From contig NZ_JAZDDH010000001.1 of assembly GCF_037081715.1 (NCBI RefSeq), forward strand, positions 1,054,001 through 1,118,000: a stretch of DNA of 64,000 nucleotides. Reading direction: 5' to 3'. This DNA is from Halalkalicoccus sp. CG83. GTDB taxonomy: Archaea; Halobacteriota; Halobacteria; Halobacteriales; Halalkalicoccaceae. The notes below the pieces were generated by a model. It did no database searches, was not told where the DNA came from, and was given only the letters and a program-made list of their open reading frames with translations. Position numbers and translations under genes: made by a program. Of the stretch, positions 27,128 to 63,481 are shown in pieces; within the stretch, counting starts at the first letter, position 1; each line of letters opens with the position of its first letter.

Positions 27128-27199
27128 GCCTGGGTAGCTTAGCGGTAAAGCGCGTCCTTGGTAAGGACGAGAGCCCGGGTTCAAATCCCGGCCTAGGCT
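27128..27199 (+). tRNA. tRNA-Thr (anticodon GGT)
   Basis: A 72-nt cloverleaf. The acceptor stem GCCTGGG/CCTAGGC contains one G-T pair, with discriminator T. The D arm includes AGCGGTAA, the anticodon stem CGTCC/GGACG encloses loop TTGGTAA (anticodon GGT), and the T arm is CCGGG-TTCAAAT-CCCGG. No CCA is encoded and no intron is seen. The GC-poor accessory tract starts immediately downstream. Confidence 0.95.
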
Positions 27200-28014: not shown

Positions 28015-28365
28015 GTCGTGAGACGGTGTATACCTCCTATAGGGCTGTTTTCATCTCAGCGTGAACTCTCCGAGTAAGTACTATTGCGAATCGGCCATCA
28101 CTATTTCCATTACTTACCACTCCTGCTTGCCGTAGCCCGCTACATACGCTGTAAGAAGATCGTGATTCAACGACCGGACCCGTTACCAGCCGGTCCGCGT
28201 TCGTGTCGCTTCGCTGTTCGTTGACAGGGTCTAGTACTACCGTGACCTTCCGTTGAGTGATATCTCTCCTTCTCGTTGAGTTCCTCTCATCATCAACGAT
28301 ATCCGTCACGGGCGGAGGACGGATACAACGACCACGTTTAGAGGAGGGACTCGACCTTCGCTTCA
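28015..28365. other. intergenic, low-GC, no recognisable gene
   Basis: About 350 bp between the broken regulator and the membrane gene pair. A minus-strand open frame of 110 codons exists, but its Arg/Ser-rich composition looks random. The sequence has lower GC than the flanks and may be eroded mobile-element DNA; I cannot identify a transposase or terminal repeats. Confidence 0.4.
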
Positions 28366-29007: not shown

Positions 29008-29009
29008 GC

Positions 29010-29594
29010 TCACTCGGATAAGTCGATCGGGGACGTATGTGATCCCACGTGCTCCATCTTCTCGAAGTACCATTCAAAAAGCACACCCATCGCGATTCCG
29101 ATGCCCGTGACGATGACAATGTCCAGCTGAAGTTCCCTCTGAGAGTGAAGGAACCCCGTTCCTAACCAGAGATCCGAATAGTACTGGGCGATCGTCCAGA
29201 TCCCCTGGACTGCGAGGGTCATTAGGGCGGCGAAAGCAACGGCGAAGCGTCGAGTCATTTCGACGAGGGTGAACGCGTCGAGCTCGATGACCACGATGAG
29301 CGCAAGCGTCGCGATAGCGAAATACCCTGCTATCTCACCGTAGATCCCGAGCGCCCGAACGATCATGGCCGCGGCCGCGACCAACGGGAGCGGCCAGGGA
29401 ACCATCACGGTCCACTCTCCGGTTACCACTGTAGGCACGGCGATAACGACGACGACGAGAAGTGCAACTCCGCCCCAGAGGAAGGCACCCGTCAGGAGGC
29501 TTTCCACGGCTGTGAGAGCCACAATGCCCGTTAGCATCCAGCCGATGAGAGCGTTCATCCGTTCGTCGTGAACGACTGCCCGTAGCCGTACCAT
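29010..29594 (-). CDS. membrane protein paired with the downstream YjdF-like gene
   Basis: A 194-residue protein with about five transmembrane helices. It shares layout with its neighbour: a conserved acidic residue in a helix (VVIELDAFTLVEMTRRF), IWTIAQYYSDLW, and DIVIVTGIGIAMGVLFEWYFEK, which parallels the last helix of the other gene. They may be diverged partners forming one complex. The start at 29594 precedes an N-terminal basic segment; the internal Met at residue 13 is an alternative. Function unknown. Confidence 0.72.
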   Translation of the reverse strand: MVRLRAVVHDERMNALIGWMLTGIVALTAVESLLTGAFLWGGVALLVVVVIAVPTVVTGEWTVMVPWPLPLVAAAAMIVRALGIYGEIAGYFAIATLALIVVIELDAFTLVEMTRRFAVAFAALMTLAVQGIWTIAQYYSDLWLGTGFLHSQRELQLDIVIVTGIGIAMGVLFEWYFEKMEHVGSHTSPIDLSE

Positions 29595-29798
29595 ACCGGA
29601 TCTACGTGAACGGAACGGATAAATCGAAAGCCATGGCGATCCTCGTTCGACGACGTCCCGATCGCCGGGACCATTGAGGACGGCCTCGTGGACTCGACGT
29701 CATGGAGTCCGGACGGTCAGGATCTCGGGGGTTGCTAGCGCGTTCACGCCGAGATACGGACGGTCGTACCGCTTCGTCCCGGCGGGGGACATCGCCCG

Positions 29799-30242
29799 TC
29801 AGGCCTCCATGGTCGGGTCCGTGGTGACTGGGACCAACAGAACCGGTATCCGCTGCGTGTCGAGAACGGCTTCGGACATGCTCGATAAGACGAACTCCTC
29901 GATCGGTCCCTGTTCGACGTTACCCATCACGACGTACTCGTAGTCGCAGTCCTCTGCCATGATCGTATCGAGCAGCTGTTTGCGTTTCGAAACCCTCGAT
30001 CGCTCGTACTCGCCTTCCTGCGTATCGAGATCGTCGATCGACACCTCGAAATCGACGTCGGGAGCCGTTCGCCGCATCGCCTCCTGGACCTCGGTTCGGA
30101 GCCGGTCGTCGGGCGGATCCTCTTGTTCGCGGATGTGATAGACGAAGAGATCATCGCCGGTGGCCGCCGCGCGCTGTGCTGCGAACTCGAGTACCGGTTT
30201 TCGAGACGACTCCTTCCCGTACGCGACGAACAGGGTCCCCAT
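29799..30242 (-). CDS. universal stress protein-like
   Basis: A 147-residue alpha/beta protein starting MGTLFVAYGKESSRKPVLEFA, with a UspA-like pattern: a first strand, a helix, then VFVYHIRE-like strand 2 and a C-terminal VMGNVEQGPIEEFVLSSMSEAVL region. The last strand is RIPVLLVPV. The ATP-binding G-2x-G-9x-G(S/T) motif of UspA is not intact, so it is probably of the non-ATP-binding type. It may act under stress; neighbours give no clue. Confidence 0.8.
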   Translation of the reverse strand: MGTLFVAYGKESSRKPVLEFAAQRAAATGDDLFVYHIREQEDPPDDRLRTEVQEAMRRTAPDVDFEVSIDDLDTQEGEYERSRVSKRKQLLDTIMAEDCDYEYVVMGNVEQGPIEEFVLSSMSEAVLDTQRIPVLLVPVTTDPTMEA

Positions 30243-30542
30243 ACCTCACTCTCGTTTAGTCCGGTGCTTTACTCTGTCCCCGATCGACCCCCATTCACGA
30301 GAGTTCGTCGATGCCCTCCGTTTGACCAGCAGGAGCGGATGGGAGGCCAGACGACTATCGCTCACCACGATCGGAACCAGAGTGGCCCGGTTTCGAGACG
30401 GTGCAGTCGATGCGATGGACGATGTCTGCTGGATGATGCTTGAGCGTAATCGACGGGCGCAACGAGTACTGCCCTACATGAGATTCGTCGAGCGTCGGTC
30501 ATCCGCCCCGTCTATCTCTCTTCGTTCGATCTCCTCGAGTCA
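30243..30542. other. intergenic region
   Basis: About 300 bp between the stress protein and the lipid kinase, both on the minus strand. A rightward open frame crosses it, but with no typical haloarchaeal composition. Probably the promoter of the stress protein (minus strand) lies near 30245-30275. I see no other element. Confidence 0.4.
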
Positions 30543-31484
30543 TCACTCGACCTGAGGAACGTATTCGTCTCCCACGCGAACGCTGAGGGCTCGTGGCCGT
30601 ACCGAGATCCGGACCGTCTCGTAGCTCCGTATCTCCCCGTCGAGACTGTACGTCACCCGTGCGTCATCCAGTTCGATGATTTCGAGCTGATCGGATTGCA
30701 GATCCGTCACGTGCGACGTCTCTCGGTGGAGGAGCCGCCGTGTTACGCTCTCGATGACCGCGTCGATCCCCGACAGCGGTTCGACGATGGTGATCTCCAG
30801 CGTCCCGTCCTCGGCGTTCGCCCGCTCGTTTGCCTCCATGAACCGCCGAAGGTTTCCGGCGAACACGGACAGGGCGTTCCCCTTCCAGGTGATCTCCTCG
30901 CCTTCGGAGATGGCATCCACCTCCACCCGGAGATCGCCGGATCTCCTGGCCTTCTGGATCCCCTCGATCACGAACCCGAGCCGTCCCAGCCGGTTTTTCA
31001 GCCCGGGTGAGACGCTGGCGCTCGCCTCCGCCGGCACTCCGACGACGGCCGAAATTACGAACGGCTCGTCGTTGGCGACCCCGAGATCGAGCCGTCTCGT
31101 GTCGCCGCTCTCGGCCAGCTTGAATCTGTGTCGCATGCCGCGGATCCCCAGCCCGTCGGCCAAGATGTTCACCGTCCCGGCAGGGACGACACAGAGGGTC
31201 ACCGAGTCGAGGGCCTCGGCCGCGACGAGTCCTTGAATGACCTCGTGAACGGTGCCGTCGCCACCACAGACGGCGAGCAGGTCGACCCCGTCGGCTGCGG
31301 CCCGTTTGGCTAGTTCCATGCCGTGTCCTGTGTGATCAGTCTCGATGACTGAAAACCCATAGGACTGTGCGAGTTGGTGGGCTTGCTCGGTGTGGCCACC
31401 ACCTCCGCTGACTGGATTCAAAACGAGTTGCCGTGTTTCCTGCGTCTCTCTATCCGGTGTTTCTCCGTCCCCATGGTCCATCAC
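30543..31484 (-). CDS. diacylglycerol/lipid kinase family protein
   Basis: A 313-residue protein of the DAGK catalytic family, phosphorylating a lipid alcohol with ATP. The phosphate-binding motif NPVSGGGG near residue 25 and the signature GGDGTVHEVIQGL near residue 75 are intact, as is VPAGTVNILADGLGI. The C-terminal half (LDLGVANDEPFVIS, VFAGNLRRFMEAN) has the beta-sandwich fold of YegS-like enzymes. Archaeal members act on isoprenoid glycerols or sphingosine-like alcohols. There are tandem ATG codons at the start. Confidence 0.9.
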   Translation of the reverse strand: MMDHGDGETPDRETQETRQLVLNPVSGGGGHTEQAHQLAQSYGFSVIETDHTGHGMELAKRAAADGVDLLAVCGGDGTVHEVIQGLVAAEALDSVTLCVVPAGTVNILADGLGIRGMRHRFKLAESGDTRRLDLGVANDEPFVISAVVGVPAEASASVSPGLKNRLGRLGFVIEGIQKARRSGDLRVEVDAISEGEEITWKGNALSVFAGNLRRFMEANERANAEDGTLEITIVEPLSGIDAVIESVTRRLLHRETSHVTDLQSDQLEIIELDDARVTYSLDGEIRSYETVRISVRPRALSVRVGDEYVPQVE

Positions 31485-31698
31485 GAGGATCTATGGAATG
31501 CGCACGCTAATACCCTGTGTCGACGCTGATACGCAAGCGACTAGTACCGTCGATTCGCCATCGGGCCACTACCGTGCGTGGCTGTGTGGCCAAATGAGGG
31601 AGGGATACGATGATCTCTCTGCATGACTCCCAAATCGGGGTATCCCGATGTCGGTGACATGTTCATGATGTACTTACATCCACCTACCATTTGATAAT

Positions 31699-32190
31699 CG
31701 AGATGGGTCTATAGCGCCAGATGCCGCTGAAATACTCCATCGTGCAGTCGAGGAAGGTGAACGGCGCCGTGACCAATAGCTGCTTGAACTCGTCTCGACG
31801 AGTTTCACCGCGGGGCTCGCGATCGTCTTCGGTATCGTCGCACTCGGAATCGTTCACGCACTGGTCGAACCACGTTTCGGTGACGTTGCTCGGATCGCAG
31901 GCGCACTCGTCTTCTCTGTCGAAGGTGTCCTTCCCAGAGGGAAGGCGGACGGACTGAGTAAGGTTGCCGAGGAGATCGTGCATCGGAGAGCTCTCGCTGG
32001 GTTTGCGAGTGCCATCATCGGGGTTTCACTCGTGAGCTCACCCTCGTTCCTCCTGGAGAGCGTTAATAGCGTATCGAGCCGGATCACCAGGGCCTATATC
32101 GTTGGAGTAGTATTGATCCTCGGGCCCTTCGACCACGTCATCGTTACTGCGCTCTACGTCTTTTTCGGGATTTTGTCCGGTGCCGCGGTC
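31699..32190 (+). pseudogene. remnant of a formate/nitrite (FNT) type transporter
   Basis: In frame, DAAEILHRAVEEGERRRDQ is followed by a TAG at 31777-31779. Then come LELVSTSFTAGLAIVFGIVAL, GDVARIAGALVFSVEGVL and, after a gap, VSSRITRAYIVGVVLILG and HVIVTALYVFFGILSG. These match the start, helix 1-2 and late helices of haloarchaeal FNT channels, but the central helices are missing. The frame then runs straight into a CNNM-type gene fragment. The stop codon and internal deletion mark it as non-functional. Confidence 0.6.
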
Positions 32191-32767
32191 GGCGACGCTC
32201 AAGCTGTTCGGCGTCGAGATGACCGGGGCGTGGCTCGAGACCGAACAGGACGTCATCGAGAGCCGTGCCGACCTCAGAAACCGGATGGACTCGCTGCTCG
32301 CGGAGGGCGACCTCGACGAGGAGCGCCACGAGGAGGTCCTCGGCGCGCTCGCAGTCGGCCGGATGACCGTCGAGGACGTCATGGTCGACCGCGAGGAGGG
32401 GGTCTTCCTCTCGACGGAGATCCCCCTCTCGAAGAACCTCGATCGACTTTCCGGGTCGCTGCACAACCGCTATCCGCTGATCGGCGACGATCCAGATGAC
32501 TTCCGGGGAATCGTATATGTCTCAGCCGCCCTCGACCGGATCGACGACCTTCGGTCGGGTGATACGACCTTGGAGGAGCTCGCGGCGCCGCCGATGACCG
32601 TCTCCACTGACATCAGCGTGAGCGACGTTATCGATCGGTTCCAGACCGAGAGCCAGGAGTTGGCGCTTGTCGTCTCGGATGAGGAGGTCGTCGGGCTGGT
32701 GACCGCCACGGACGCGATGGAGGCGGTCGTCGGGGAACTCGAGGACCCACTCGACGAGGGTGGATAG
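32180..32767 (+). pseudogene. truncated CNNM/DUF21 transporter, CBS-domain half only
   Basis: An intact 195-residue frame, but it corresponds only to the cytosolic part of a CorC/CNNM ion transporter. It opens with the linker ATLKLFGVEMTGAWLETE and RADLRNRMDSLL, followed by TVEDVMVDREEG (first CBS) and ALVVSDEEVVGLVTATDAME (second CBS). The DUF21 membrane domain (about 180 residues) that should precede it is absent and replaced by the FNT remnant. The GTG at 32180 is a possible new start. It could still be expressed as a soluble CBS protein; codon use is GC-rich, unlike the sequence upstream. Confidence 0.65.
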
Positions 32768-33037
32768 CTGCCTTCTGAAGTCGTACTGCTTCGAGGCAAT
32801 TAACGGTAGATTCAGCAATCTCGTCGATCAGATGATCGATTTCAGCTACTACCGTTGTATCTCCTACATCGGAAAACATCACTCTCCTTTTTTCCTAAGG
32901 TTTCGAGGGCCGTAGAGGCTCTGTTCTTGGACATCTAAACTCGGAATCGGAAGGGTGCTCAGAGAGCGGTACGAGCCGGAAGAAAAATTCGTCACCTTCA
33001 GCTGGTGTGTTTCCTGCTCTCGTGCTCCCCTTCAGAC

Positions 33038-33065
33038 GAGCGCCTGAGTTCCTAATCAGGCGCTC
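33038..33065. repeat. 10-bp perfect hairpin; word repeated at 33137
   Basis: GAGCGCCTGA (33038-33047) and TCAGGCGCTC (33056-33065) are exact complements around an 8-nt loop. A further copy of TCAGGCGCTC is at 33137-33146. Confidence 0.7.
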
Positions 33066-33158
33066 TGTACTACTAGGGGGCTGAACCCGATGTACCCTTT
33101 CCATGCTGCCACGAGCTGAGAGCGTCCACAAGAAACTCAGGCGCTCAAACAGGCCCGA

Positions 33159-33184
33159 CTCGACTTACGCCTGAGCAAGTCGAG
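33159..33184. repeat. 8-bp hairpin CTCGACTT / AAGTCGAG
   Basis: CTCGACTT at 33159-33166 pairs perfectly with AAGTCGAG at 33177-33184 across a 10-nt loop (ACGCCTGAGC). The loop holds CGCCTGAGC, close to the word of the neighbouring hairpin, so the two structures seem related. Confidence 0.6.
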
Positions 33185-33430
33185 CAGGTTCGCGACGAGG
33201 AGCGGCTACCGGCGGTTTCGAGGTCGCCGAACGTAGCTCCGGTTCAGTTGCGAGCAGTACGTCTCTACGGACGTCCCTCCTCGATCGAGATCCCTACGGC
33301 GCTACCCGGTTGGAGACGATCCACGGAGTATCGAACCGGTGAGCGCGTATCTCGGTACTCATCCGCTCTGTACGGACACTCATCTCTCAGGACCTCCGTT
33401 AGAAGAGCGGCGTTGCCCTTTGCTACCGTG

Positions 33431-33505
33431 TTAATATGATACATATATACAAACTAGGAGTATTAAATGTATATGGGTAGAACTTATACGTGTAACCACC
33501 ATCGA
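33431..33505 (+). promoter_or_regulatory. very AT-rich promoter/operator region
   Basis: This tract (TTAATATGATACATATATAC, TATTAAATGTATATG) is the most AT-rich stretch in the window and lies directly before the small winged-helix gene. CATATAC-like and GTATATG words face each other about 20 bp apart. ACTTATACG at about 33482 is a TATA candidate some 35 bp from the ATG. Autoregulation by the encoded protein is plausible but inferred. Confidence 0.5.
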
Positions 33506-33519
33506 TTCAGGTAGTCACA

Positions 33520-33780
33520 ATGAGCCCAGCAACACTCGCCCAGGCGGAGACGACCGCGACTGCGACCAAGACCACGACGATCACCCCGATTCCCGCGACG
33601 CTCGACTCACCCAACTCGAAGCTCGTCTACCTCTATCTCGCGACCGTCGAAGAGGCAACGATCGGCGACCTCCAGTCGGCGCTGGAGATGCAGCAGCTCG
33701 CGCTGTTTCCCACGCTGGACACCCTCGAAGGCGAGGACCTCATCGAGCGCGACGGCGAGACGTTCACCGTCGCCGCGTAA
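33520..33780 (+). CDS. small winged-helix (TrmB/MarR-like) protein
   Basis: An 86-residue protein with a Thr/Ala-rich N-terminus (residues 1-28). A winged helix follows: SKLVYLYLATVEEATIGDLQSAL and LALFPTLDTLEGEDLIERDG then a short wing. This is the helix-turn-helix part of TrmB-like regulators without an effector domain. Haloarchaea contain many such short proteins; targets unknown. A strongly AT-rich upstream region supports controlled transcription. Confidence 0.8.
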   Translation: MSPATLAQAETTATATKTTTITPIPATLDSPNSKLVYLYLATVEEATIGDLQSALEMQQLALFPTLDTLEGEDLIERDGETFTVAA

Positions 33781-34402
33781 GGCCCCGTTCGCAGCGGAAC
33801 GGTTCGGTGGGGTCTCTTCTCACCGGACTATTCGGAGACCCCGATGGAGATCAACGATGGATTCTCTTCACGACTCTTTCGAGCGGTACGATCGCTGGTA
33901 TCTTGCACATCTACCGGATTCCATTCGGCAAGCGGTCGGGGCAGAGCTCTGACCACATCACCGGATTCCAACGGAATCCGGCCAGCAGCTGGAAATCTGT
34001 GATTTCCGGCGACATCATCGGAACGCTTCGGGTTCGAGTCGGCATCCGAGCACCCGTGATCGCTGACGACGAACGCGAGTAGGCTTTCCGTTCGTCAGCC
34101 GGCTCTACCGCTGATCCGCTCACTCGTTCGCGGTCGTTTCGAGTCTCCTCCGGAGGAGGTGGGAGGCGCGATCCGATCGAACGGCGGCCTCGTTCGAATG
34201 CGCGAGAGCTCCTATCGGCTGATTCGACGCATCCGTTCCTCGGATCTCCGATATCGGCCTGCTTTCGGATCCAGTGGCGATGATCTCACGTCGGTACTCA
34301 CTGGGACCACGAACGGGGGCTGCGTTCGATCCCGACCCGCCGTGGGACGTCTCACCAAAGGTTAAGACCCAGCGTATCGAGAGTGGTTCACGAGGACACG
34401 CC
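33781..34402. other. gene-poor region with tandem hairpins before gvpA
   Basis: About 620 bp. A 91-codon rightward frame (33807-34082) is weak in coding character. CCGGATTCC/GGAATCCGG (33961-33981) and GGAAATC/GATTTCC (33991-34007) form two adjacent hairpins, and CTCCTCCGGAGGAG (34145-34158) is a perfect palindrome. The last 50 bp contain AAGGTTAAGACC, a TATA candidate about 35 bp ahead of the gvpA ATG. Confidence 0.5.
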
Positions 34403-52066: not shown

Positions 52067-55000
52067 ATGAATGAGAACCCATCACAAGAGAGGGGCGCCG
52101 AGTCGAGTCGTCGGGGCTTTCTCGGCGGCGTCGGGGCGCTCATCGCCGCGGCGGCGTACACCCGGGACGTTCCCGCGGCGGTGGCCGCTCGGGTGACGAA
52201 CGAGGAAGACGACGCGATCCAGCGCGTCGAGTCGCCCGACGGGTCGATCACCGTGACCGTCGACGTCTCTGAGGGCGTTCCGAGCTACGAGGTCGCCCAT
52301 GGCGACGACACCTACATCGAGCCCTCGACGCTGGGTTTCGACTTCCGGAACCAGCCGACGTTCGGCGCGTCGGCCGACGGGGGCGCCGGCGCCGGGATCG
52401 AGGTCACGGGCAGCGAACGCGAGTCGCAAACCGAGGAGTGGGAGCCCGTCTGGGGCGAGTTCGGTGACGTCTCGGCCGAGTACGAGTCGCTGGTCGTCGG
52501 CCTGGAGGAGGTCGAGGGGCCGGGCCGCTCGGCCAACCTCGAACTCCGCGTCTTCGACGACGGGTTCGGATTCCGGGTCGTCCTCGACGAGGGGTTCGCG
52601 AGCAACTCGGAGAGAGCGGTCGTCACGAGCGAGAACACCGCCGTCGAGTTCGCAGCCGACTACACCGCGTGGTGGATCCGCAACGAGGTCACCAACCCCC
52701 GGTACGAACAGGAGTACGAGGAGACGCGGCTCTCCGAGATCCCCGGCGGGACGCGCGAGACGCGGCCCACCGACACCCCGCTTCGAAACGGCGCGCACAC
52801 GCCGCTGACCGTCGAGGCGGCCGACGTCTATCTGAGCGTCCACGAGGCGAACCTCGAGGACTACGCCTCGGCGACGCTCGCGGCGCCCGAGGGGAGCGGG
52901 ACGGCGTTCACGACCGAGCTCACGCCGCTACCCGACGGGACGAAGGCGTCGCTCTCTCTGCCGGCGATGACGCCCTGGCGAACGGTCCAGATCGGCGAGA
53001 GCCCGGGCGACCTGATCGAGTCACAGCTGATTCCTCTCCTAGCTGACCCGCTCGACGAGTCGGCGCTGCCGACCGCCGGCGGCGAGCCCGATACGGACTG
53101 GATCACCCCGCGAAAGTACGTCGGCATCTGGTGGACGATGATCGCGGGCTCCGCCAACTGGGAGTACCGAGACGACGACTCCTTCGAGAGCCCCGAGGAG
53201 GCGGCGGGCTACGTCCACGGTGCGCGGACCGAGCGGATGAAGCGCTACATGGCGTTCGCGGGCGAGAACGGCATCGACAGCGTGCTCGTCGAGGGCTGGA
53301 ACGAGGGCTGGGACACCTACCCCGGCGACGGTTCCGGACTCGAGTTCGGCGTCGACGACTCGTATCCCGACTTCGACGTGCGGGAGGTGACGGAGTTCGG
53401 GCAGGGGCTCGACGGCGGGGTGGAGATGACGATCCACAACGAGACGGCGGGGAACCTCCCGAACTACGAGGAGCAGATCCTCGATGACGACGTCTTCGAG
53501 CAGTACGAGGACGTGGGGATCCGCTCGATCAAGAACGGCTACGTCTCGGACGCGGGGCTGGGGATCGACGGCGACGGCTCCGAGCCGACTCATAACCAGC
53601 ACAACCAGCTGGCGGTCAACCACCATCGACTGGTCATCCAGGAGGCGGCGAGCGACCGCCAGATGCTCGAGATCCACGAGGCCATCCCGCCGACGGGGGA
53701 GATCCGGACGTACCCCAACGTGGCGAACCGCGAGGTGGTCCGAGCCCAGGAGTTCGACGGGTTCGGCCAACTGGGATCGGACGTTGGCCGGGAACACCAC
53801 GTCACGCTGCCCTTTACGCGGATGTTGGCGGGTCCGACCAGCTTCCAGCCCGGCATCTTCGACCTCACGTTCAACGACGATCGGGGCGGCCAGATCCAGA
53901 CGACGCGGGCGAAACAGCTCGCGATGTACCCGAACTACCTCAGCGGGCTGCAGATGGCCGCCGACCGGCTCGAGGCGTACGTCGACGGCGGGTTCGAGGT
54001 CGGCGAGCTCGTCCAGGCGGCCTCGGGTGAGCTCGAGGGCATGATCACGCTCGACGAGTGGCGAAACGCCTTCGGGACGAACTACGTCGCGGTCGACCCC
54101 AACCGGGTTCCGAGCGGGTCGTCGGTCGCCTTCACCGTCAGGGACGTCGACGCCGCCGGTACGTACGACCTCCACCTCCGCTACGCGAGCGCGCCGGAGG
54201 ACAACGCGGGGCGAGTCGTCGAGGCCGGTGCGCCGCGGGCGACCCTCCGGGTCAACGACTCGACCGAGACGATCGAGCCCTCGTTCACGGAGTACTGGGA
54301 CGAGTGGGAGGTGTTCACGACCGAGGTAGAACTCGAGGCGGGCGACAACGAGGTCGCGATCGAGCTGGAGTACGACGACGGCGAGACCTTCGAGGACGAC
54401 GTCGGCGGGTTCAACCTGAACACGGTCGCGGTCACCGAGGCCGGCGAACCCTCGCCGGTCCCCGCAGCGTACGAGGGTTACACCCCCGAGAACGAGAACT
54501 TCGACGCGGAGCCGGAGTTCGAGTTCATCGAGGAGGTCCCCGCTGCCGGTTGGGACGAAACCCGGGTCGTCGACGCGGAGATCGGTGATTACGTCGTCAC
54601 CGCCCGACGGAAGGGCGAGGAGTGGTACGTCGGCGCGATGACCGACGAGGGCGGGCGCGCACTCGACGTTCCCTTGGACTTCCTCGCGCCCGGCGAGTCC
54701 GGCGGGGCTGGTCAGGGCAATCGACAGGGGCCGAACTACGTCGCCGAGATCTACTCCGACGGGATCGGCGGCGGGGTCGACGCCGATCCCACCAGCGTGC
54801 GGATCGACGAGGCGATCGTGAACCCGGATTCCACGATGCTGGCCTCGATGGCGCCGAGCGGCGGGACCGCGATCCGGCTCCGACGCGCGCGCGGCAGAGA
54901 GAGCAAGGATCTTCCCGACTACGAGCGTCCCCAACAGGAGCTCACCTACTCGATCGCGTCGGAGGTCGAGCTGAACGAGCCAGCCATCACCGCGACCGGC

Positions 55001-55879
55001 TCGAACGACGCGGCGTTCGTCGGCGGGACGACCGTCGAGATCGAAGTCGACGGGGAGCTCGCGACCGTCGACAACGTCCGGCTCCCGCCGGGCGCATCGG
55101 ACGAAACGGTCGAGCTGGGCTATCGGATCAGCTCGATCGGGAGCTACGACGTCGTCGTGCGCGATCCCGAGGACGGAAGCGAGCTCGCGTCGGGCACCGT
55201 CACCGTCGAACCCGGCGAGCTGATCGCCGAGCTCGACGATCCGGGCGGCGATGACGACGGCCCCGGCGAGTACGTCTACCCGACCGACGACGCGTTCGAG
55301 GACGGCGCGTTCGACCTGCTGTCGCTCGACGTCTACGAGTCGGAGGAGGAGTTCCTGTTCGCCTTCGAGGTCGAGAACCTCTACGACGCCTTCGGCGGCG
55401 AGTTCTCGCCCCACTACTTCGTCCTCTACCTGCGCGATCCCTCGCGGTCGGACGGGCGGACGAGCGACCTCGGCGACCTCGAACTCACCGCCGAGTTCGA
55501 CGAGGCGTGGCACTACCGGATCGACGCCAGCGGCTTCGGACGGGGCGTCGTCGATGCCGAGGGGACCGACCTCGGGACGCCGGAAACGCTCGCCGACTTC
55601 GAGAGCGGTACGGCGATCGTCACGGTCGAGAAGGACCTACTCTCCGATCTGGACCTCGCCGATGCCGAGGTCGCGCCGGTCGTCGGAAGCGAGGACCGGG
55701 GAACGCTCCGCGGGGTCGATATCGAGGCCGGACCGTTCACTTTCGGCGGCGCACGCGAGGGCGCGGTCGAGAATGCCCCGCGAATCGTCGATCTCCTGAC
55801 GCCGGAGGGCGTCGACCAGACCGACGCGCTCGACTACGACGAAGGGTCGCTCGCCTCGGTGCCGTTCACGCCGCTGTAG
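52067..55879 (+). CDS. secreted GH97-type glycosidase with carbohydrate-binding modules
   Basis: A 1270-residue exported enzyme. The Tat signal SSRRGFLGGVG (Arg15-Arg16) leads into a GH97 N-terminal domain (about 50-310). The catalytic barrel (about 320-640) includes VLVEGWNEGW (Glu409), IHNETAG (Glu459) and VRAQEFDGFG (Glu562). These are the GH97 glutamates expected in the inverting alpha-glucosidase type. Residues about 650-790 form a CBM6-like beta-sandwich and about 800-945 the GH97 C-terminal barrel cap. An Ig-like domain (960-1060) and a glucodextranase C-terminal, DOMON-like module (from 1068, YVYPTDDAFEDGAFDL) complete the protein. It should release sugars from an extracellular glycan. 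It precedes the acid-sugar operon. Confidence 0.85.
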   Translation: MNENPSQERGAESSRRGFLGGVGALIAAAAYTRDVPAAVAARVTNEEDDAIQRVESPDGSITVTVDVSEGVPSYEVAHGDDTYIEPSTLGFDFRNQPTFGASADGGAGAGIEVTGSERESQTEEWEPVWGEFGDVSAEYESLVVGLEEVEGPGRSANLELRVFDDGFGFRVVLDEGFASNSERAVVTSENTAVEFAADYTAWWIRNEVTNPRYEQEYEETRLSEIPGGTRETRPTDTPLRNGAHTPLTVEAADVYLSVHEANLEDYASATLAAPEGSGTAFTTELTPLPDGTKASLSLPAMTPWRTVQIGESPGDLIESQLIPLLADPLDESALPTAGGEPDTDWITPRKYVGIWWTMIAGSANWEYRDDDSFESPEEAAGYVHGARTERMKRYMAFAGENGIDSVLVEGWNEGWDTYPGDGSGLEFGVDDSYPDFDVREVTEFGQGLDGGVEMTIHNETAGNLPNYEEQILDDDVFEQYEDVGIRSIKNGYVSDAGLGIDGDGSEPTHNQHNQLAVNHHRLVIQEAASDRQMLEIHEAIPPTGEIRTYPNVANREVVRAQEFDGFGQLGSDVGREHHVTLPFTRMLAGPTSFQPGIFDLTFNDDRGGQIQTTRAKQLAMYPNYLSGLQMAADRLEAYVDGGFEVGELVQAASGELEGMITLDEWRNAFGTNYVAVDPNRVPSGSSVAFTVRDVDAAGTYDLHLRYASAPEDNAGRVVEAGAPRATLRVNDSTETIEPSFTEYWDEWEVFTTEVELEAGDNEVAIELEYDDGETFEDDVGGFNLNTVAVTEAGEPSPVPAAYEGYTPENENFDAEPEFEFIEEVPAAGWDETRVVDAEIGDYVVTARRKGEEWYVGAMTDEGGRALDVPLDFLAPGESGGAGQGNRQGPNYVAEIYSDGIGGGVDADPTSVRIDEAIVNPDSTMLASMAPSGGTAIRLRRARGRESKDLPDYERPQQELTYSIASEVELNEPAITATGSNDAAFVGGTTVEIEVDGELATVDNVRLPPGASDETVELGYRISSIGSYDVVVRDPEDGSELASGTVTVEPGELIAELDDPGGDDDGPGEYVYPTDDAFEDGAFDLLSLDVYESEEEFLFAFEVENLYDAFGGEFSPHYFVLYLRDPSRSDGRTSDLGDLELTAEFDEAWHYRIDASGFGRGVVDAEGTDLGTPETLADFESGTAIVTVEKDLLSDLDLADAEVAPVVGSEDRGTLRGVDIEAGPFTFGGAREGAVENAPRIVDLLTPEGVDQTDALDYDEGSLASVPFTPL

Positions 55880-55950: not shown

Positions 55951-57243
55951 ATGCCACGCGCGCTGGTCGCCGCCGACGACCTCACCGGCGCGACCGACAC
56001 CGCCCACGCGTTCGCGAAGCGCGGCTATCGCACGGCGGTACAGGTCGATCCCGACGGAGCGCCGCCCGATGCGACGGTTCTGGCCGTGAACACCGACTCG
56101 CGGTACGTCGATCCCGAGACGGCCGCCGATCGGGTCGGCCGAGCGATCGAGGCGAGCGACGCCCGCGTCGTCTACGGGAAGGTCGACTCGACGCTGCGGG
56201 GGAACGTCGCGAGCGAGGTCGGGGCCGCGATGGACCGCGGGTTCGACCTCGGGTTGGTCGCGCCCGCCTCGCCCGCGGTCGGCCGGATCACCGCGAGCGG
56301 CTACCACCTCGTCGACGGTCGACTGCTCTCGGACACCGAGTACGCGGACGACCCGAACGGCCCCCGTTCCTCGCGTCTCCCGACGCTGTTCGAGGGGGCG
56401 GATCGGTCCGTCCGCCACCTCGACGCGGGAACGGTCGCCGCCGGCCCCGGGGCCGTCCGCGAGGCGGTCGTCGGCACCCCCTCGGGAACGCTTTTCACCT
56501 GCGACGTGACCCACGACCGGCACCTCGAGGCGATCGCACGGGCAGGCAGCGACATCGACCGACGGGTACTCTACGTCGGCAGCGCCGGTCTCGCGGAACA
56601 CGTGATCGTTCCGGGCGAACCCGATCGCGAACCTCTCGAAATCGTCGGCGACGGCGGCGCGCTGGGGATCGTCGGCAGCGTCAGCGAACGATCGCTGGAG
56701 CAGCTCGCGGCGCTCCCGGGGGACTGGGTGATCGCCCTCGAACCGGAGGAGCTGCTCTCCGACCCGGAGTCCGCGGGTCAGGAGGCGGGCCGGCGAGCCG
56801 CAGAGCGCCTCGCGGCGGGCGAGCACGCCGTCGTCACGGCGGCACCGGATCGGGAGACGGTCGATCGGACGCTCGCCGTCGGTCGGGAGGCGGGGCTCGA
56901 TGAGGGACCGATCCGGGATCGAGTCGCCAGCGCGCTCGCGAGCGCGACACGGGCGGGGTTCGACGTTGTCGGACAGCGTCCGACCGCCAGCGGAGCACCG
57001 CTCCGCGCTGCCGATCCCGCGGGCCTGTTCGTCACCGGCGGCGACGTGGCGATGGCGGCCTTCGACGCGCTCGGCGTCAGCGCGCTGTCGCTCTCGGGCG
57101 AGGCGATCGAGGCGGGGATCCCCGTCAGCCGTCTCGAGGGCGGGCCGGCTGACGGCACGCCGGTCGTCACGAAGGCCGGCGGGTTCGGGGGGAAGGAGAC
57201 AGCGGTTAACTGCCTCCGGTACCTCGGTGGCGACCATGAGTAA
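55951..57243 (+). CDS. four-carbon acid sugar kinase (DUF1537)
   Basis: A 430-residue kinase of the DUF1537 family, whose characterised members phosphorylate D-threonate, D-erythronate and related acids. N-terminal motif AADDLTGATDTAHAFAKRG, then KVDSTLRGNVASEVG and, in the ATP-binding C-terminal domain, LFVTGGDVAMAAFDALG. It is the first gene of the operon and overlaps the PdxA-like gene by 8 bp. With PdxA2 beside it the closest known match is DtnK (D-threonate), but substrate is unproven. Confidence 0.88.
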   Translation: MPRALVAADDLTGATDTAHAFAKRGYRTAVQVDPDGAPPDATVLAVNTDSRYVDPETAADRVGRAIEASDARVVYGKVDSTLRGNVASEVGAAMDRGFDLGLVAPASPAVGRITASGYHLVDGRLLSDTEYADDPNGPRSSRLPTLFEGADRSVRHLDAGTVAAGPGAVREAVVGTPSGTLFTCDVTHDRHLEAIARAGSDIDRRVLYVGSAGLAEHVIVPGEPDREPLEIVGDGGALGIVGSVSERSLEQLAALPGDWVIALEPEELLSDPESAGQEAGRRAAERLAAGEHAVVTAAPDRETVDRTLAVGREAGLDEGPIRDRVASALASATRAGFDVVGQRPTASGAPLRAADPAGLFVTGGDVAMAAFDALGVSALSLSGEAIEAGIPVSRLEGGPADGTPVVTKAGGFGGKETAVNCLRYLGGDHE

Positions 57244-58261
57244 ACCCACGATCGGGATCACGATGGGCGATCCCGCGGGGATCGGCCCGGAGATCGTCGT
57301 GAAGGGATATCGCGAGCTCCTCGAGGTCGCGAACCCGCTGGTGATCGGCGACGCCGGCACCGTGGAGGCCGCTTGCGGGATCTGCGGGTCGGACCTCGGG
57401 ATCCAGCGGATCTCGGCTCCCGCCGACGCCTCGTTCGACTCGGACGAAATCCCGGTGCTCGACCTCGAGAACGTCGACGATCTGGAGCGAGGCGTCGTCC
57501 GCGAGGCCTACGGCGCGGCGAGCCTGGAGTACGTCGAGCGGGCGATCGAACTCGCCCTCGACGAACGGATCGACGCCATCACCACGGCGCCGATCAACAA
57601 GCAGTCGACGAAGCTGGCGGGCAGCGAGTACGCGGGCCACACGGGGATGCTCGCGGACTACACAGGTACAGAAAGCTACTCGATGATGCTGATCGAGGAG
57701 CCACTGCGCGTGAGTCACGTCAGTACGCACGTTCCCCTGCGCGAGGCCTGCGACCTCGTGACCCGCGAGAACGTGCTCGAGACGATCCGAGTGACCGACG
57801 AGGCGCTCCGCGAGTTGGGGATCGAGGAGCCGACGGTGGCGGTTGCGGGGCTCAACCCCCACGCCAGTGACGGGGGCCTGCTCGGCGAGGAGGACGGTCG
57901 GGAGATCGAACCCGCGGTCGAAGACGCTCGCGAGGAGGGGATCGACGCTCTCGGACCGGAGTCACCCGACACGGTGTACGTCCAGGCGGCCCGTGGCGCG
58001 GCCGACTGCGTCGTCTCGATGTACCACGACCAGGGCCACATCCCGATCAAGACGCTCGGCTTCGCCGAGGGCGGCGCCGTTTCGGGCGTGAACGTCACGA
58101 TCGGACTGCCGATCATCAGAACGAGCGTCGACCACGGCACCGCCTTCGACATCGCCGGCGAGGGGGTCGCGAGCGAGCGAAGCCTACTCGACGCCGTCGA
58201 GGTCGCGAGCGAGATGGCTCGCCGGCGGACGCGGGCCGAAGCGGACGGTGGTGAGCCATGA
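57236..58261 (+). CDS. PdxA-family dehydrogenase (PdxA2-like)
   Basis: A 341-residue member of the 4-hydroxythreonine-4-phosphate dehydrogenase family: PTIGITMGDPAGIGPEIVVK, TTAPINKQSTKLAG, GHTGMLADYTG (metal His), PHASDGGLLGEED and MYHDQGHIPIKTLGF. True PdxA works in bacterial vitamin B6 synthesis; archaea generally use Pdx1/2 instead. Beside a DUF1537 kinase, the PdxA2 role is expected: oxidation and decarboxylation of a 4-phosphorylated C4 acid to dihydroxyacetone phosphate. It overlaps its neighbours by 8 and 4 bp. Confidence 0.9.
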   Translation: MSKPTIGITMGDPAGIGPEIVVKGYRELLEVANPLVIGDAGTVEAACGICGSDLGIQRISAPADASFDSDEIPVLDLENVDDLERGVVREAYGAASLEYVERAIELALDERIDAITTAPINKQSTKLAGSEYAGHTGMLADYTGTESYSMMLIEEPLRVSHVSTHVPLREACDLVTRENVLETIRVTDEALRELGIEEPTVAVAGLNPHASDGGLLGEEDGREIEPAVEDAREEGIDALGPESPDTVYVQAARGAADCVVSMYHDQGHIPIKTLGFAEGGAVSGVNVTIGLPIIRTSVDHGTAFDIAGEGVASERSLLDAVEVASEMARRRTRAEADGGEP

Positions 58262-59562
58262 ACGTCGAGTTTCCGGACGCCGAGACGCTTCGAGGGGCGA
58301 ACGACGTCGAACGCGAGGACCTCCCGCGATTCGCGAGCGTCAGCCGCGAGCGCGACCTCGACTCGATCGAGGACGTCGAGGGTGCGGCCCGGAAGGCCGT
58401 TTCGGAACTGCCGCTCGACTCGCTCGCACCCGGCGCGGAGGTGGCGATCACCGCCGGCAGTCGGGGGATCCACGACATGCCCGTGCTGCTGGAGGGCGCG
58501 GTCGACGAGCTTCGAGAGCGGGGGTTCGAGCCGTCGGTGATCGCGGCGATGGGCTCGCACGGCGGGGCGACGAGCGAGGGCCAGCGCGAGACCCTCGAGG
58601 CGCTCGACATCACCGAAGATCGAATGGGCTGTCCGATCCGGACCTCGATGGCCGTCGAGGCGGTCGGCGAGGACTCGCTGGGCAGGGAGGTGCTCGTCGC
58701 CGAGGACGCCCTCGCAGCCGACGCCGTGATCCTCGCGAACCGGATCAAGCCCCACACCGACTTCCACGGCCCCGTCGAGAGCGGCCTCTGTAAGATGGCG
58801 GTGATCGGCCTCGGGAAACACCGCGGGGCGGAGTCGCTACACAACGCCGGGCTCGCCGCCGATTTCAGCGAGGTCATCGAGGAACGCGCTGCACTGATAA
58901 TCGAGGAGAGTCCGGTCGTCGGCGGGATCGGCCTGATCGAGAACGCCGCGGACCGCGCGACCCACGTCAAGGGGATCCCCGCCGACGCGATCCTCGATCG
59001 CGAACCCGAACTGCTCGATCGCGCGCGCGAGGAACTCCCCACGCTCCCGGTCGACGACCTCGACCTGCTGATCGTCGACGAGCTCGGAAAGGAGATCTCG
59101 GGGACGGGCATGGACACCAACGTGATCGGGCGGGTGCTGTTCCACGGGGAGCGCGAACCCGATTCGCCCGCGATCACCCGGATCTATGCCCGCTCGCTCA
59201 CGCCGGCCTCCCACGGCAACGGCCTCGGACTGGGACTCGCGGACTTCGTCCACCGGGACGTCGTCGAGGACCTCGAACTCTCGGACATGTACGTCAACAT
59301 CGCCACAAGCGGCGAGCCATCGCGGGCGCGGATCCCCTTCACCGTTCCCGACGACCTGACCGCGCTGGTCCTGGCCTGCTCGACGACCGGCGTCGCTGAC
59401 CCGTCCGAACTGCGGGTCGCCCGGATCGAGAGCACGATGGAGCCCGACGACCTGCTGGTTTCCGAGCCGGTCGTCCGCGAACTCGAGGGTCGTGAGGACG
59501 TCTCGGTCGGCGAGCCACGGCCGCTCGCCCTCGAGGACGGGACGTTGCCCCCGCTCGAGTGA
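58258..59562 (+). CDS. LarA-family (lactate racemase domain) protein
   Basis: A 434-residue protein of the LarA superfamily (DUF2088). Visible motifs are AITAGSRGIHDMP, AAMGSHGGATSEGQRE (His101), NRIKPHTDFHG (His166) and GLCKMAVIGLGKHRGAES, the last holding lysines where LarA binds its nickel-pincer cofactor. Family members racemise or epimerise 2-hydroxy acids. The ATG overlaps the pdxA stop, so it belongs to the acid-sugar pathway and not to lactate metabolism. The cofactor genes larB, larC and larE are not in the window. Confidence 0.88.
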   Translation: MNVEFPDAETLRGANDVEREDLPRFASVSRERDLDSIEDVEGAARKAVSELPLDSLAPGAEVAITAGSRGIHDMPVLLEGAVDELRERGFEPSVIAAMGSHGGATSEGQRETLEALDITEDRMGCPIRTSMAVEAVGEDSLGREVLVAEDALAADAVILANRIKPHTDFHGPVESGLCKMAVIGLGKHRGAESLHNAGLAADFSEVIEERAALIIEESPVVGGIGLIENAADRATHVKGIPADAILDREPELLDRAREELPTLPVDDLDLLIVDELGKEISGTGMDTNVIGRVLFHGEREPDSPAITRIYARSLTPASHGNGLGLGLADFVHRDVVEDLELSDMYVNIATSGEPSRARIPFTVPDDLTALVLACSTTGVADPSELRVARIESTMEPDDLLVSEPVVRELEGREDVSVGEPRPLALEDGTLPPLE

Positions 59563-59615
59563 TCCGGGTTACCGGGACGCCAACCTCTTTGGCCGTGGTA
59601 CCCGGAACGTAGCGT

Positions 59616-60503
59616 ATGACGGCGCTCGACGGTTCGTTCAACGGCGTACTGTGTCCGATCGTCACCCCCCTCGACGATGGCGAGGTCGACGAGGAGGCGC
59701 TCGCCTCGCTCACGGAGTTCATCCTCGACGGCGGGGTCGACGGACTGTTTCCCTGTGGCACCACCGGCGAGTTCGCGAGCCTCTCGCCCGAGGAACGAGC
59801 GCGGGTGATCGGTACCGTCGCCGAAGCCGCCGGCGACGCGCCCGTGATCGCCGGTGCGGCGGGAACGAGCGTTCCCGAAACCCTGAGCCGGATCGAGGAG
59901 GCAGAGGCGGCGGGGGCCGACGCCGCGGCGATCGTCGGCCCGTACTTCCACACGGCGAACGGCCCCGATGGGACGCGGCGCTTCTTCGAGGCGGTCGCCG
60001 AGGAGAGCGCGCTGCCGCTGTATCTCTACAACATCCCGATGTACGTCGGTGACGGCATCGACGCCGAAACCGTGGGGACGCTCGCGGAGCACGAGTCGGT
60101 ACGGGGCATGAAGGACACCAGCGGCGATCTCTCCTACTTCCTCTCGGTCGACCGCCACACGCCGGAGGAGTTCGTACTGATGCAGGGGTTCGACACGCTC
60201 CTGGTTCCCGCCCTCCGGATGGGCTCGAACGGCGGGGTCCACGCGCTCGGGAACGTGATTCCCGAGGTGTTCGCCGAACTGCTCGACTCGGCCGACGAGG
60301 AGCGGGGATCCGAGCTTCAGCGCGAGGCGATCGCGCCGCTGTTCGAACTCTGCGTCGAACACGGCTTCGCGCCCGCGACGAAGGCCGCGCTCGTCCACCG
60401 CGACGTCATTCCGAGCGACGAGGTCAGGCCGCCGCTGGTCGAACTCGACGACGAGGCGAAGGAGGCGATCGCCGACGCGGTCGATCGGGCGCTGTCGATC
60501 TAG
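59616..60503 (+). CDS. DapA/KDG-aldolase family lyase
   Basis: A 295-residue class I aldolase of the dihydrodipicolinate synthase superfamily. GTTGEFASLSPEER is the substrate-binding loop, YNIPMYVG holds the conserved Tyr138 and GMKDTSGD the Schiff-base Lys166. A role in lysine synthesis is unlikely here; its neighbours suggest cleavage or dehydration of a 2-keto-sugar acid, like KDG aldolase. It begins 53 bp after the LarA-like gene and probably shares its transcript. Confidence 0.87.
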   Translation: MTALDGSFNGVLCPIVTPLDDGEVDEEALASLTEFILDGGVDGLFPCGTTGEFASLSPEERARVIGTVAEAAGDAPVIAGAAGTSVPETLSRIEEAEAAGADAAAIVGPYFHTANGPDGTRRFFEAVAEESALPLYLYNIPMYVGDGIDAETVGTLAEHESVRGMKDTSGDLSYFLSVDRHTPEEFVLMQGFDTLLVPALRMGSNGGVHALGNVIPEVFAELLDSADEERGSELQREAIAPLFELCVEHGFAPATKAALVHRDVIPSDEVRPPLVELDDEAKEAIADAVDRALSI

Positions 60504-61879
60504 AGGGGAACGAGCGTCGAGAGGGCGAGGACGATCAACAGCCCCGAGACCGACATGATCGTCGAGGTCGCTGAGTAGGTCTTGAACGTCTCCATCTGGG
60601 TGATGCCTGCGACCTCGCTGATGATCCAGAAGCCGCTGTCGTTGTACCACGGTGCGATCATTCCGCCGAAGCCGATCGCCATCATCAGATAGACCGGGTT
60701 GGCGGCGAGCCCGCCCGCGAGCGGCGCCATGATCGCCGCGCCGGTGAGGATCGCGACCGTGCCCGAACCCTGGGCGACGCGGATCACGGCGGCGATGAGC
60801 CACCCCGCGAAGAGCAGGCCGAAGCCGAGCTCTTGGAGCCCGCCGGCGATGTACTCGCCGACGCCCGCCGCCGCGAGCATCGCGCCGAAGGTGCCGCCGG
60901 CGGCGGTGATCGCGATGATGTTACCGCCGCTCTTGATCGCCTCGGTCAGTTCGTCGCCGAAGCGGTCACGGTCGCCGGCCATCTCCATGCGGAAGAAGGT
61001 GTACGCAGAGAGCATCGCGGCCGCCGTCAGCGCGAAGTTCGCGTCGCCGAGAAACGAGGTCAGCGGGACGACGACACCGTCCTCGGCGACGGCGCCCGCG
61101 TCGGCGAGCACGTCCCCGATCGTGTTCGAGGCGATGAGGACTACTGGAACGGCGATCGGCAGCGACGACTCCAGCAATCCGGGCAGCTCGCTCGTGGGCC
61201 GCTGGGTCTTCTCCTGGAGGTCCTCCGGCGAGGAGCCCATCGCCTCCCGGAGCGGGAAGTCCTCGCGGCTATGGAGGAATCGCCCGTAGACCACCCCGCC
61301 CAGAAGCGCCGCCGGCAGCGCGACGACCGCGCCGACGACGATCGCCAGACCCAGATCGACGCCCAGCTCGGCGGCCATCGCGAGCGGGCCGGGCGTCGGG
61401 GGGACGAGCATGTGCGTCGCGAGCGCGCCCGCCGCCAGTACCGAGATGTACAGCGAGAACTTCACGCCCGTACGGGCCTTCATCGAGCGGCCCAGCGGCG
61501 CGAGCAGGTAGAAGACGTTGTCGAAGAACACCGGGATCGACAGCACGAAGCTCGAGCCGAACAGCGCGTACTCCGAACGGTCCTCGCCGGTCAGCGAGAG
61601 GAAGGCTCGAACGATCCGATCGGCGGCCCCGCTGTCCATCAGCGTCTTGCCGATGATCGCGGCCATCAGGATGGGGATCCCGATCGCGACCATCACGTCG
61701 CCGAACGACTCGGCGATCTCCGCCGGCACCTCGGCGAACGGGACCTCCGGCGTGGCGATCCCGATCGCCATCGCGGCGATGATCAGCCCGACGAACGCGG
61801 GCAGCTTCAGCAGGACGAGCAGCGCGACGACCGTGACTACGCCGATCGCGAACGGTACGAGCGGGGTATCGAGTACCAT
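60500..61879 (-). CDS. GntP-family sugar-acid permease
   Basis: A 459-residue membrane protein of the GntP (gluconate permease) family with 12 to 14 helices. Family features: SIPVFFDNVFYLLAPLGRSM, THMLVPPTPGPLAMA, RVAQGSGTVAILTGAAIMAPL and IAPWYNDSGFWIISEVAG. Members import gluconate or other acid sugars with protons. It converges on the aldolase gene (4-bp overlap), so it is transcribed separately but fits as the importer for the neighbouring operon. Confidence 0.92.
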   Translation of the reverse strand: MVLDTPLVPFAIGVVTVVALLVLLKLPAFVGLIIAAMAIGIATPEVPFAEVPAEIAESFGDVMVAIGIPILMAAIIGKTLMDSGAADRIVRAFLSLTGEDRSEYALFGSSFVLSIPVFFDNVFYLLAPLGRSMKARTGVKFSLYISVLAAGALATHMLVPPTPGPLAMAAELGVDLGLAIVVGAVVALPAALLGGVVYGRFLHSREDFPLREAMGSSPEDLQEKTQRPTSELPGLLESSLPIAVPVVLIASNTIGDVLADAGAVAEDGVVVPLTSFLGDANFALTAAAMLSAYTFFRMEMAGDRDRFGDELTEAIKSGGNIIAITAAGGTFGAMLAAAGVGEYIAGGLQELGFGLLFAGWLIAAVIRVAQGSGTVAILTGAAIMAPLAGGLAANPVYLMMAIGFGGMIAPWYNDSGFWIISEVAGITQMETFKTYSATSTIMSVSGLLIVLALSTLVPL

Positions 61880-61992
61880 GCTATGGATCGCCGTTCAGAG
61901 TCGGCCGTATTAACGCTTGATGTGTCGTCCCGTCTCGGTATCGGTCGCTCGCCGTCCCAGCAGTTATGTGGGTGTTGGTCGACGTATCCGAC

Positions 61993-62451
61993 GTGTACGA
62001 CCGAATCCTCGTTCCGACCGACGGCAGCGAACAGTCCGCGCGCGCGACGGATCACGCCCTCGAGATCGCCCGACAGTTCGGAAGCGCCGTTCACGCGATC
62101 CACGTCGTCGACGATCGGGGCGCGGGCCGCGCCGCGGAGGCGGTGAGCGATCTCTCGCCGAACTCCCCCGAGCGGCAGGCGATGGACGAACGCCGCAAGG
62201 AGGCGGGCAACGAACTGACGGCCGCCATCACCGAACGCGCCCGCGAGGCCGGCCTCGACACCCACGGCGAGGTCATACACGGCGAGCCGGCCGACGAGAT
62301 CACGGAGTACGCCCGAACGAACGACGTGGACCTCATCGTGATCGGTGCACGCGGGCGGAGCGCGGTCGGGAAGTTCCTGCTCGGAAGCGTCGCCGGCAAG
62401 GTCTCGAGACACGCTTCGACGCCAGTGATGCTGGTCAGACCCGACCAGTAA
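61993..62451 (+). CDS. universal stress protein (UspA family)
   Basis: A 152-residue USP: YDRILVPTDGSEQSARATDHALEIA at the start and the ATP-binding motif GARGRSAVGKFLLGSVAGKVSRH near the end, with VMLVRPDQ closing. Unlike the protein at 29.8 kb, the nucleotide-binding motif is intact. I chose the GTG at 61993, giving the usual MYDRILVPTDGS start; an ATG at 61966 in frame is the alternative. Divergent from gntP, 110 bp away. Confidence 0.88.
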   Translation: MYDRILVPTDGSEQSARATDHALEIARQFGSAVHAIHVVDDRGAGRAAEAVSDLSPNSPERQAMDERRKEAGNELTAAITERAREAGLDTHGEVIHGEPADEITEYARTNDVDLIVIGARGRSAVGKFLLGSVAGKVSRHASTPVMLVRPDQ

Positions 62452-62506: not shown

Positions 62507-63481
62507 ATGGCAGTTCGCGTCAAGACCGGAAGCCGGCTCCACTTCGGCTTCCAGAACCTCTCGCTGGCCCACGAGCGCCTCTACGGTAGCCTGGGCCTCG
62601 CGCTCGACGCTCCCCGACTGGTCCTCGAGTGCGAGCGCGCCGAGCGAGTCGTGGCCGACCACCCCGACGTCGAGCGCTACGCCCGTCGGGTCGTCGACCT
62701 GCTCGACCTCCCCGGCGCACGCGTGCGAGTGAGCGAGGCGCTTCCCCGCCACGTCGGCCTCGGCAGCGGCACGGGGTTCGCGCTCGCGACCCTCGCGGGG
62801 ATCGCCCGGGCGTACGGCTGCGACTCCCGGATACGCGAACGGGCGCCGGCGTTGGGTCGCGGCGGGCGGAGCGGGGTCGGCATCGCCGCCTTCGAGGCGG
62901 GCGGGTTCGTCCTCGATGCGGGCCACCCGACGACCCGCTTCACCGCCGAACGGCCGCGCGACGGCGCGTGGACGGTCCCCGCCGTGACCGCACGTCACCC
63001 GATCCCCGAGGCGTGGCGTTTCGTCCTCGTCCTCCCCGACGTCGAACCGGGGCGCAGCGGCGAGCAGGAGGACGCGAGCATGCGATCCGTGGTCGAGCGT
63101 GCCAGTCCCTCGATCGCGGACGAGGTCGCGACGATCTGCGCCCGGCGTGTCCTCCCGTCGATCGCCGAGGGTGACCTCCCGACGTTCGCCGACGCGGTCG
63201 CGGAGGTCGGCCGGCTCAACGGCGCGTGGTACGCCGACAGCCAGGGCGGGGTGTACCGCCCGCCGGTCGGCGAGGTCGTCCGCTCGCTGGAGTCCTCGTC
63301 GGCGATCGACGGCGCGGGCCAGTCCTCGTGGGGACCCGCGGTGTACGGCCTCACCGACCGCGACCGCACCGAGACGGCTCGGGAGGCCGCAAAGGGGGCG
63401 CTCGAGGCCGCCGACGTCGACGGCGACGTTCGGATCGCCCGCGGACGCAACGTCGGCGCCTCGATCGATCACGAGCGGTGA
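62507..63481 (+). CDS. beta-ribofuranosylaminobenzene 5'-phosphate synthase family (GHMP fold)
   Basis: A 324-residue GHMP-kinase-superfamily protein: VRVKTGSRLHFGFQNL (family N-terminus), PRHVGLGSGTGFALATLAGIA (phosphate-binding) and GRGGRSGVGIAAFEAGGFVLDAG, all typical of the RFAP synthase family. In methanogens this enzyme joins p-aminobenzoate to phosphoribosyl pyrophosphate in methanopterin synthesis. Haloarchaea are not methanogens, so its product here (folate-like or other) is open. It is preceded by the stress protein gene at 55 bp. Confidence 0.85.
   Translation: MAVRVKTGSRLHFGFQNLSLAHERLYGSLGLALDAPRLVLECERAERVVADHPDVERYARRVVDLLDLPGARVRVSEALPRHVGLGSGTGFALATLAGIARAYGCDSRIRERAPALGRGGRSGVGIAAFEAGGFVLDAGHPTTRFTAERPRDGAWTVPAVTARHPIPEAWRFVLVLPDVEPGRSGEQEDASMRSVVERASPSIADEVATICARRVLPSIAEGDLPTFADAVAEVGRLNGAWYADSQGGVYRPPVGEVVRSLESSSAIDGAGQSSWGPAVYGLTDRDRTETAREAAKGALEAADVDGDVRIARGRNVGASIDHER

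Follow-up and report, generated by a model that had tools for sequence, protein, structure and literature searches.

Gene organisation of the locus

The 64,000-nucleotide stretch of Halalkalicoccus sp. CG83 DNA analysed here, called the window below, carries near its end five genes of a putative acid-sugar catabolic locus. Four of these lie on the forward strand and encode a DUF1537 four-carbon acid-sugar kinase of the D-threonate kinase (DtnK) branch (55951..57243), a PdxA2-type decarboxylating dehydrogenase predicted to convert D-threonate 4-phosphate to dihydroxyacetone phosphate (57236..58261), a LarA homologue of nickel-pincer-nucleotide isomerase group 22 predicted to be an acid-sugar C2-epimerase (58258..59562), and a DapA-family aldolase of the DHDPS superfamily that is probably no dihydrodipicolinate synthase (59616..60503). 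The kinase and PdxA genes overlap by 8 base pairs (bp) and the PdxA and LarA-like genes by 4 bp, and the DapA-like gene follows after a gap of 53 bp. The fifth gene, for a GntP-family acid-sugar permease (60500..61879), is located on the reverse strand, convergent to the operon, and at their 3' ends it and the DapA-like gene share 4 bp. The family assignments of all five proteins exceed the Pfam cut-offs. An earlier note on this DNA had reported the same five genes, positions, overlaps, gap and facing permease, and all were recovered here; its proposal of an acid-sugar catabolic operon around PdxA2 and the DUF1537 kinase has good support, and there is a strong association of the LarA-like gene with this operon. 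The pathway so encoded is predicted to be a variation on the known DUF1537/PdxA2 route, to which a nickel-pincer epimerase is added as a third core enzyme.

Identity of the kinase and the PdxA-like protein

The kinase contains both the SBD_N and the NBD_C domains of Pfam above cut-off. Its best NCBIfam model is that of D-threonate kinase (NF047819), with 229 bits against 78 bits for 3-oxo-tetronate kinase, and its sequence places it in the DUF1537 family as a probable DtnK-like kinase, a class assignment below equivalog level. The PdxA-like protein scores 349 bits with Pfam PdxA and passes the general pdxA model. It matches PdxA2 of Salmonella and D-threonate 4-phosphate dehydrogenase with 268-271 bits and PdxA of E. 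coli with 168 bits, the solved structures nearest to it include PdxA2, and it appears to be a PdxA2-like member of the PdxA family. In work ascribed to Zhang et al. in 2016, which PMC10971088 and PMC9997740 cite, a DUF1537 D-threonate kinase and PdxA2 reportedly convert D-threonate to dihydroxyacetone phosphate. The present locus resembles this DtnK-PdxA2 pathway in the branches of its kinase and PdxA, whose genes are here adjacent and overlapping, and in its predicted product; it differs in having a nickel-pincer LarA homologue as third core gene and a haloarchaeal host.

The LarA-like protein

The LarA-like protein belongs to the NCBIfam family NF052515, 'nickel pincer cofactor-dependent isomerase, group 22' (491 bits, cut-off 400), a group that carries only a number as its name. 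Searches of PDB sequences with phmmer and with profiles gave nothing useful, and fold comparison alone succeeded. With an AlphaFold model of mean pLDDT (predicted local distance difference test) 91 as query, the top 12 PDB matches by Z score belong without exception to the LarA family (Z 18.8-20.7 over 307-326 aligned residues, root-mean-square deviation 3.4-5.3), while the next unrelated match has a Z of 7.2. As modelled, the protein has the two-domain LarA fold. LarB, LarC and LarE, which make the nickel-pincer nucleotide cofactor, are encoded in the same genome with 228, 427 and 285 bits, all above cut-off.

Five residues do not vary among 35 group-22 sequences and 18 bacterial ones. Three were placed by hhalign profile alignment to classical LarA, namely R69, assigned as phosphate-binding arginine, and H101 and H166, assigned as catalytic histidines; the other two, K179 (cofactor lysine) and H195 (nickel histidine), were placed by their spacing of 16, the same as that of K184 and H200 reported for classical LarA. 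The second catalytic histidine is followed by T167 and D168, where lactate racemases have F-F (PMC11770544). Among known LarA homologues are epimerases that act on C2 of gluconate and of 4-deoxy-threonate/erythronate (PMC7583248, PMC11770544). The group-22 protein has the fold, the two catalytic histidines, the cofactor lysine and the nickel-binding histidine in common with the D-gluconate 2-epimerase GntE and these other homologues, and C2 inversion is predicted for it as well; however, structural alignments give it an identity of about 12-15% with solved LarA chains, its specificity residues are T-D instead of E-V or F-F, and its neighbours are a kinase and PdxA2. The one-histidine LarA subfamily (LarA Sp and LarA Bw; PMC12611868) shows the same fold and a carbohydrate gene context, but membership in it was rejected because H101 and H166 are both present. 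No paper on the function of group 22, on group 22 together with a DUF1537 kinase, or on threonate use by haloarchaea was found among open-licence publications. A further LarA paralogue of group 22 in the same genome (L146:9183-10508) adjoins, as judged by eye, apparent siderophore-synthesis genes and not sugar genes.

Distribution of the core genes in haloarchaea

Among the 391 haloarchaeal genomes searched, DUF1537 is encoded at 75 places in 64 genomes, and gene neighbourhoods were compared at the 74 places outside the window. The kinase type of the window is found at 62 of the 75 places (the window included), and PdxA adjoins the kinase at all but two of these 62. A second DUF1537 kinase type, with no PdxA beside it, occupies the remaining 13 places (L071, L072, L075, L076, L083-L085, L088, L089, L101, L102, L105 and L109). 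With the LarA-like protein as query, 48 matches of at least 55% identity are found in 46 genomes, and all other matches have 50% identity or less; the LarA subfamily was defined by the former threshold. The PdxA-linked kinase type is present in 45 of these 46 genomes, the 46th having the other DUF1537 type, and in 10 of the 345 genomes that do not contain the subfamily (45/1/10/335; nominal Fisher P 5e-48, ignoring shared ancestry). The association is asymmetric: the LarA subfamily scarcely occurs without the kinase, whereas the kinase does occur without the LarA subfamily.

The kinase is adjoined by 33 of the 48 LarA copies. Of the other fifteen, eleven are on the same contig as the kinase at a distance of 8-81 kilobases (kb), three lie in kinase-bearing genomes but on a different contig from the kinase, and one, in genome G232, lies 10 kb from a kinase of the second type. 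Kinase-linked LarA copies form one clade in the phylogenetic tree (SH-aLRT, the Shimodaira-Hasegawa-like approximate likelihood ratio test, 97) that extends across seven family codes, and paralogues of 43-50% identity fall outside it; the unlinked sequences in this tree were picked mostly from the best-scoring matches. The orientation of LarA relative to the kinase may be the same, divergent or convergent, indicating that kinase and LarA either stayed linked while the locus was rearranged or came together anew. Since the core of kinase, PdxA and LarA is found again in many genomes of haloarchaea as well as in bacteria, the cluster is not due to chance.

The trio in bacteria

Kinase, PdxA and group-22 LarA are also neighbours in Rubrobacter indicoceani, in the same order and with the same 4 bp overlap between PdxA and LarA. 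The same trio is found in an Armatimonadaceae bacterium, in a Bacillota bacterium, where PanB lies in between, and in an unplaced bacterium. The Bacillota locus (L226:20-11834) encodes, all in one direction, an Fe-S oxidoreductase, a UxaA-like dehydratase, a classical LarA, a TRAP transporter, the group-22 LarA, PanB, the DUF1537 kinase and PdxA. The bacterial LarA copies form a branch apart from the haloarchaeal clade, and the link with the kinase is therefore either ancient or arose twice. In this small sample, Arg356 is common to the kinase-linked LarA copies of both domains and absent from most unlinked copies; it also occurs in the copies of Kribbella that lie beside an IlvD-family dehydratase and in one Armatimonadetes copy. 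In Kribbella (L225, L227), the group-22 LarA directly adjoins a dehydratase of the IlvD/EDD family, and this adjacency suggests acid-sugar epimerisation.

The permease and the DapA-like aldolase as optional partners

The permease scores 307 bits with Pfam GntP_permease (cut-off 22.5). At 12 places GntP adjoins the trio; these belong to two genera, Halalkalicoccus and genus g55, which includes Natronococcus. The DapA-like protein scores 195 bits with Pfam DHDPS; its identity as true DapA was rejected, as its 181 bits do not reach the TIGR00674 dapA cut-off of 206 and the substrate-binding arginine of the motif YNVPSRT is replaced (YNIPMYVG), while the KDT context of the Schiff-base lysine is kept. 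All five genes are found together only in Halalkalicoccus, in five of its six genomes, the DapA-like gene of the sixth being located on another contig. In six genomes of three other genera, this gene lies 0.5-1.3 kb from the group-22 LarA with no kinase adjacent, and it adjoins a kinase in one further genome. Its relatives are present in 165 of the 391 haloarchaeal genomes, most of which have no subfamily LarA, and most trios have no DapA-like gene nearby. The DapA-like gene is thus a recurrent but non-core partner, and the conserved unit is a three-gene core of kinase, PdxA and group-22 LarA with optional partners. Of the five-part pathway suggested in the earlier note, the widely kept three-gene core stands, while the complete set is specific to one genus and the permease joins the trio in two.

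Proposed pathway and alternatives

The operon probably serves, with a likelihood judged slightly better than even, to degrade an imported four-carbon (C4) aldonate to dihydroxyacetone phosphate by means of a group-22 LarA C2-epimerase, the kinase and PdxA2. GntP would import the acid. The group-22 LarA, loaded with the nickel-pincer nucleotide made by LarB, LarC and LarE of the same genome, would invert C2, most likely turning D-erythronate into D-threonate; by the activities of their families, the kinase would then phosphorylate O4, and PdxA2 would oxidise C3 and decarboxylate the product to dihydroxyacetone phosphate. The DapA-like aldolase would stand outside these core steps. D-threonate has the C2/C3 arrangement of 4-hydroxy-L-threonine, the kind of substrate natural to PdxA, and D-erythronate lacks it; a C2-epimerase of LarA type would make D-erythronate usable without a detour over a dehydrogenase and an isomerase. 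The earlier suggestion that the LarA-like protein extends the substrate range may be sharpened in this sense: the protein would be a C2-epimerase that provides PdxA2 with the required stereoisomer. The Den and Ltn routes for D-erythronate and L-threonate, with a dehydrogenase and an isomerase, likewise rely on DUF1537 kinases and lead to dihydroxyacetone phosphate, but the present operon contains an epimerase and PdxA2 in place of the dehydrogenase/isomerase pair.

It is proposed more tentatively, as a generalisation given somewhat less than an even chance, that group 22, or at least its kinase-linked subfamily, consists of C4-aldonate 2-epimerases, and that haloarchaea and some bacteria share a way of converting D-erythronate to dihydroxyacetone phosphate with three enzymes, in place of the dehydrogenase and isomerase steps. 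Such a role provides a testable function for a nickel-cofactor enzyme group so far only numbered in databases. If true, it would bring nickel-pincer chemistry into a sugar-acid pathway of haloarchaea and explain the use of both C2 epimers of a C4 acid without erythronate dehydrogenase/isomerase pairs.

Several observations weigh against the C4-aldonate pathway. The kinase scores below the equivalog cut-off of NF047819 (450) and below that of the 3-oxo-tetronate kinase model, and the PdxA-like protein, with 304 bits, does not reach the cut-off of 583 for D-threonate 4-phosphate dehydrogenase (NF002891). The genome counts are uncorrected for ancestry, and in several genomes LarA is separated from the kinase by the distances given above. 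At two loci (L094:7486-10136 and L120:7411-10154), kinase and group-22 LarA are adjacent without a PdxA gene; the genome of L094 has a further kinase-PdxA pair elsewhere. In addition, the trio adjoins lactate-oxidation genes in Rubrobacter and a second LarA, UxaA, PanB and a TRAP transporter in the Bacillota bacterium, and the acid may therefore differ between lineages.

The low equivalog scores would also agree with a larger substrate. It is possible, though rather unlikely, that the aldonate epimerised at C2 by the group-22 LarA is a C5, C6 or branched one, and that kinase and PdxA turn the phosphate of this acid into a keto-sugar phosphate. GntP permeases are best known for gluconate, the DapA-like aldolase recurs as a partner, and genes for aldolases of larger sugar acids, altronate-dehydratase-like proteins and members of the enolase superfamily are among the neighbours in other haloarchaea; however, C4 acids are the substrates of the closest relatives that have been characterised.

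Improbable is a further reading, in which the group-22 LarA is a racemase of some unrelated 2-hydroxyacid (lactate, glycerate, malate or tartrate) and shares only its regulation with kinase and PdxA. The lactate-oxidation genes of Rubrobacter would fit it, as would a gene of the isocitrate/isopropylmalate-dehydrogenase family in the LarA neighbourhood of Haloferax. Against it are the T-D residues in the position of the F-F of lactate racemases, the near absence of the LarA subfamily without the kinase and, in the small sample available, the Arg356 common to bacterial and archaeal kinase-linked copies.

Less probable still is a single obligate pathway that needs all five proteins and in which the DapA-like aldolase cleaves an intermediate: the complete set in five Halalkalicoccus genomes and the proximity of DapA-like genes to LarA in six more speak for it, but the many trios without a nearby DapA-like gene, the abundance of its relatives in genomes mostly without subfamily LarA, and the sixth Halalkalicoccus speak against it. 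A role of kinase and PdxA in making vitamin B6 or in salvaging 4-hydroxythreonine is very improbable. A DUF1537 kinase can phosphorylate 4-hydroxy-L-threonine (PMC10971088) and PdxA2 can catalyse the PdxA reaction (PMC9997740), but the kinase is missing from most haloarchaea, and PdxS, by which vitamin B6 would be made, was found in the genome and PdxJ was not, which leaves the PdxA branch without a known outlet and led to the rejection of B6 synthesis as the main role.

Neighbouring genes

Beyond the permease, a universal stress protein gene (61966..62451, forward strand; Pfam Usp) is a recurrent bystander near group-22 LarA, DapA and GntP; Usp-like genes adjoin the corresponding genes in the Haloferax and Halegenticoccus loci too. 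It is followed by a gene for a protein of the beta-ribofuranosylaminobenzene 5'-phosphate synthase family (window 62507-63481), kept beside the cluster in several congeners. Upstream, a GH97 glycosidase with a glucodextranase-type C-terminal module (window 52067-55879) lies 71 bp before the kinase and is present in some Halalkalicoccus congeners and absent from others. IlvD and GH97, both upstream, were rejected as pathway parts, as they adjoin the cluster only within their own genus and GH97 is missing in some congeners. Elsewhere in the window, the region 28001-34000 has a G+C content of 0.58-0.61 against about 0.68 and lies shortly after a tRNA-Thr gene at 27128; it is possibly an integrated element.

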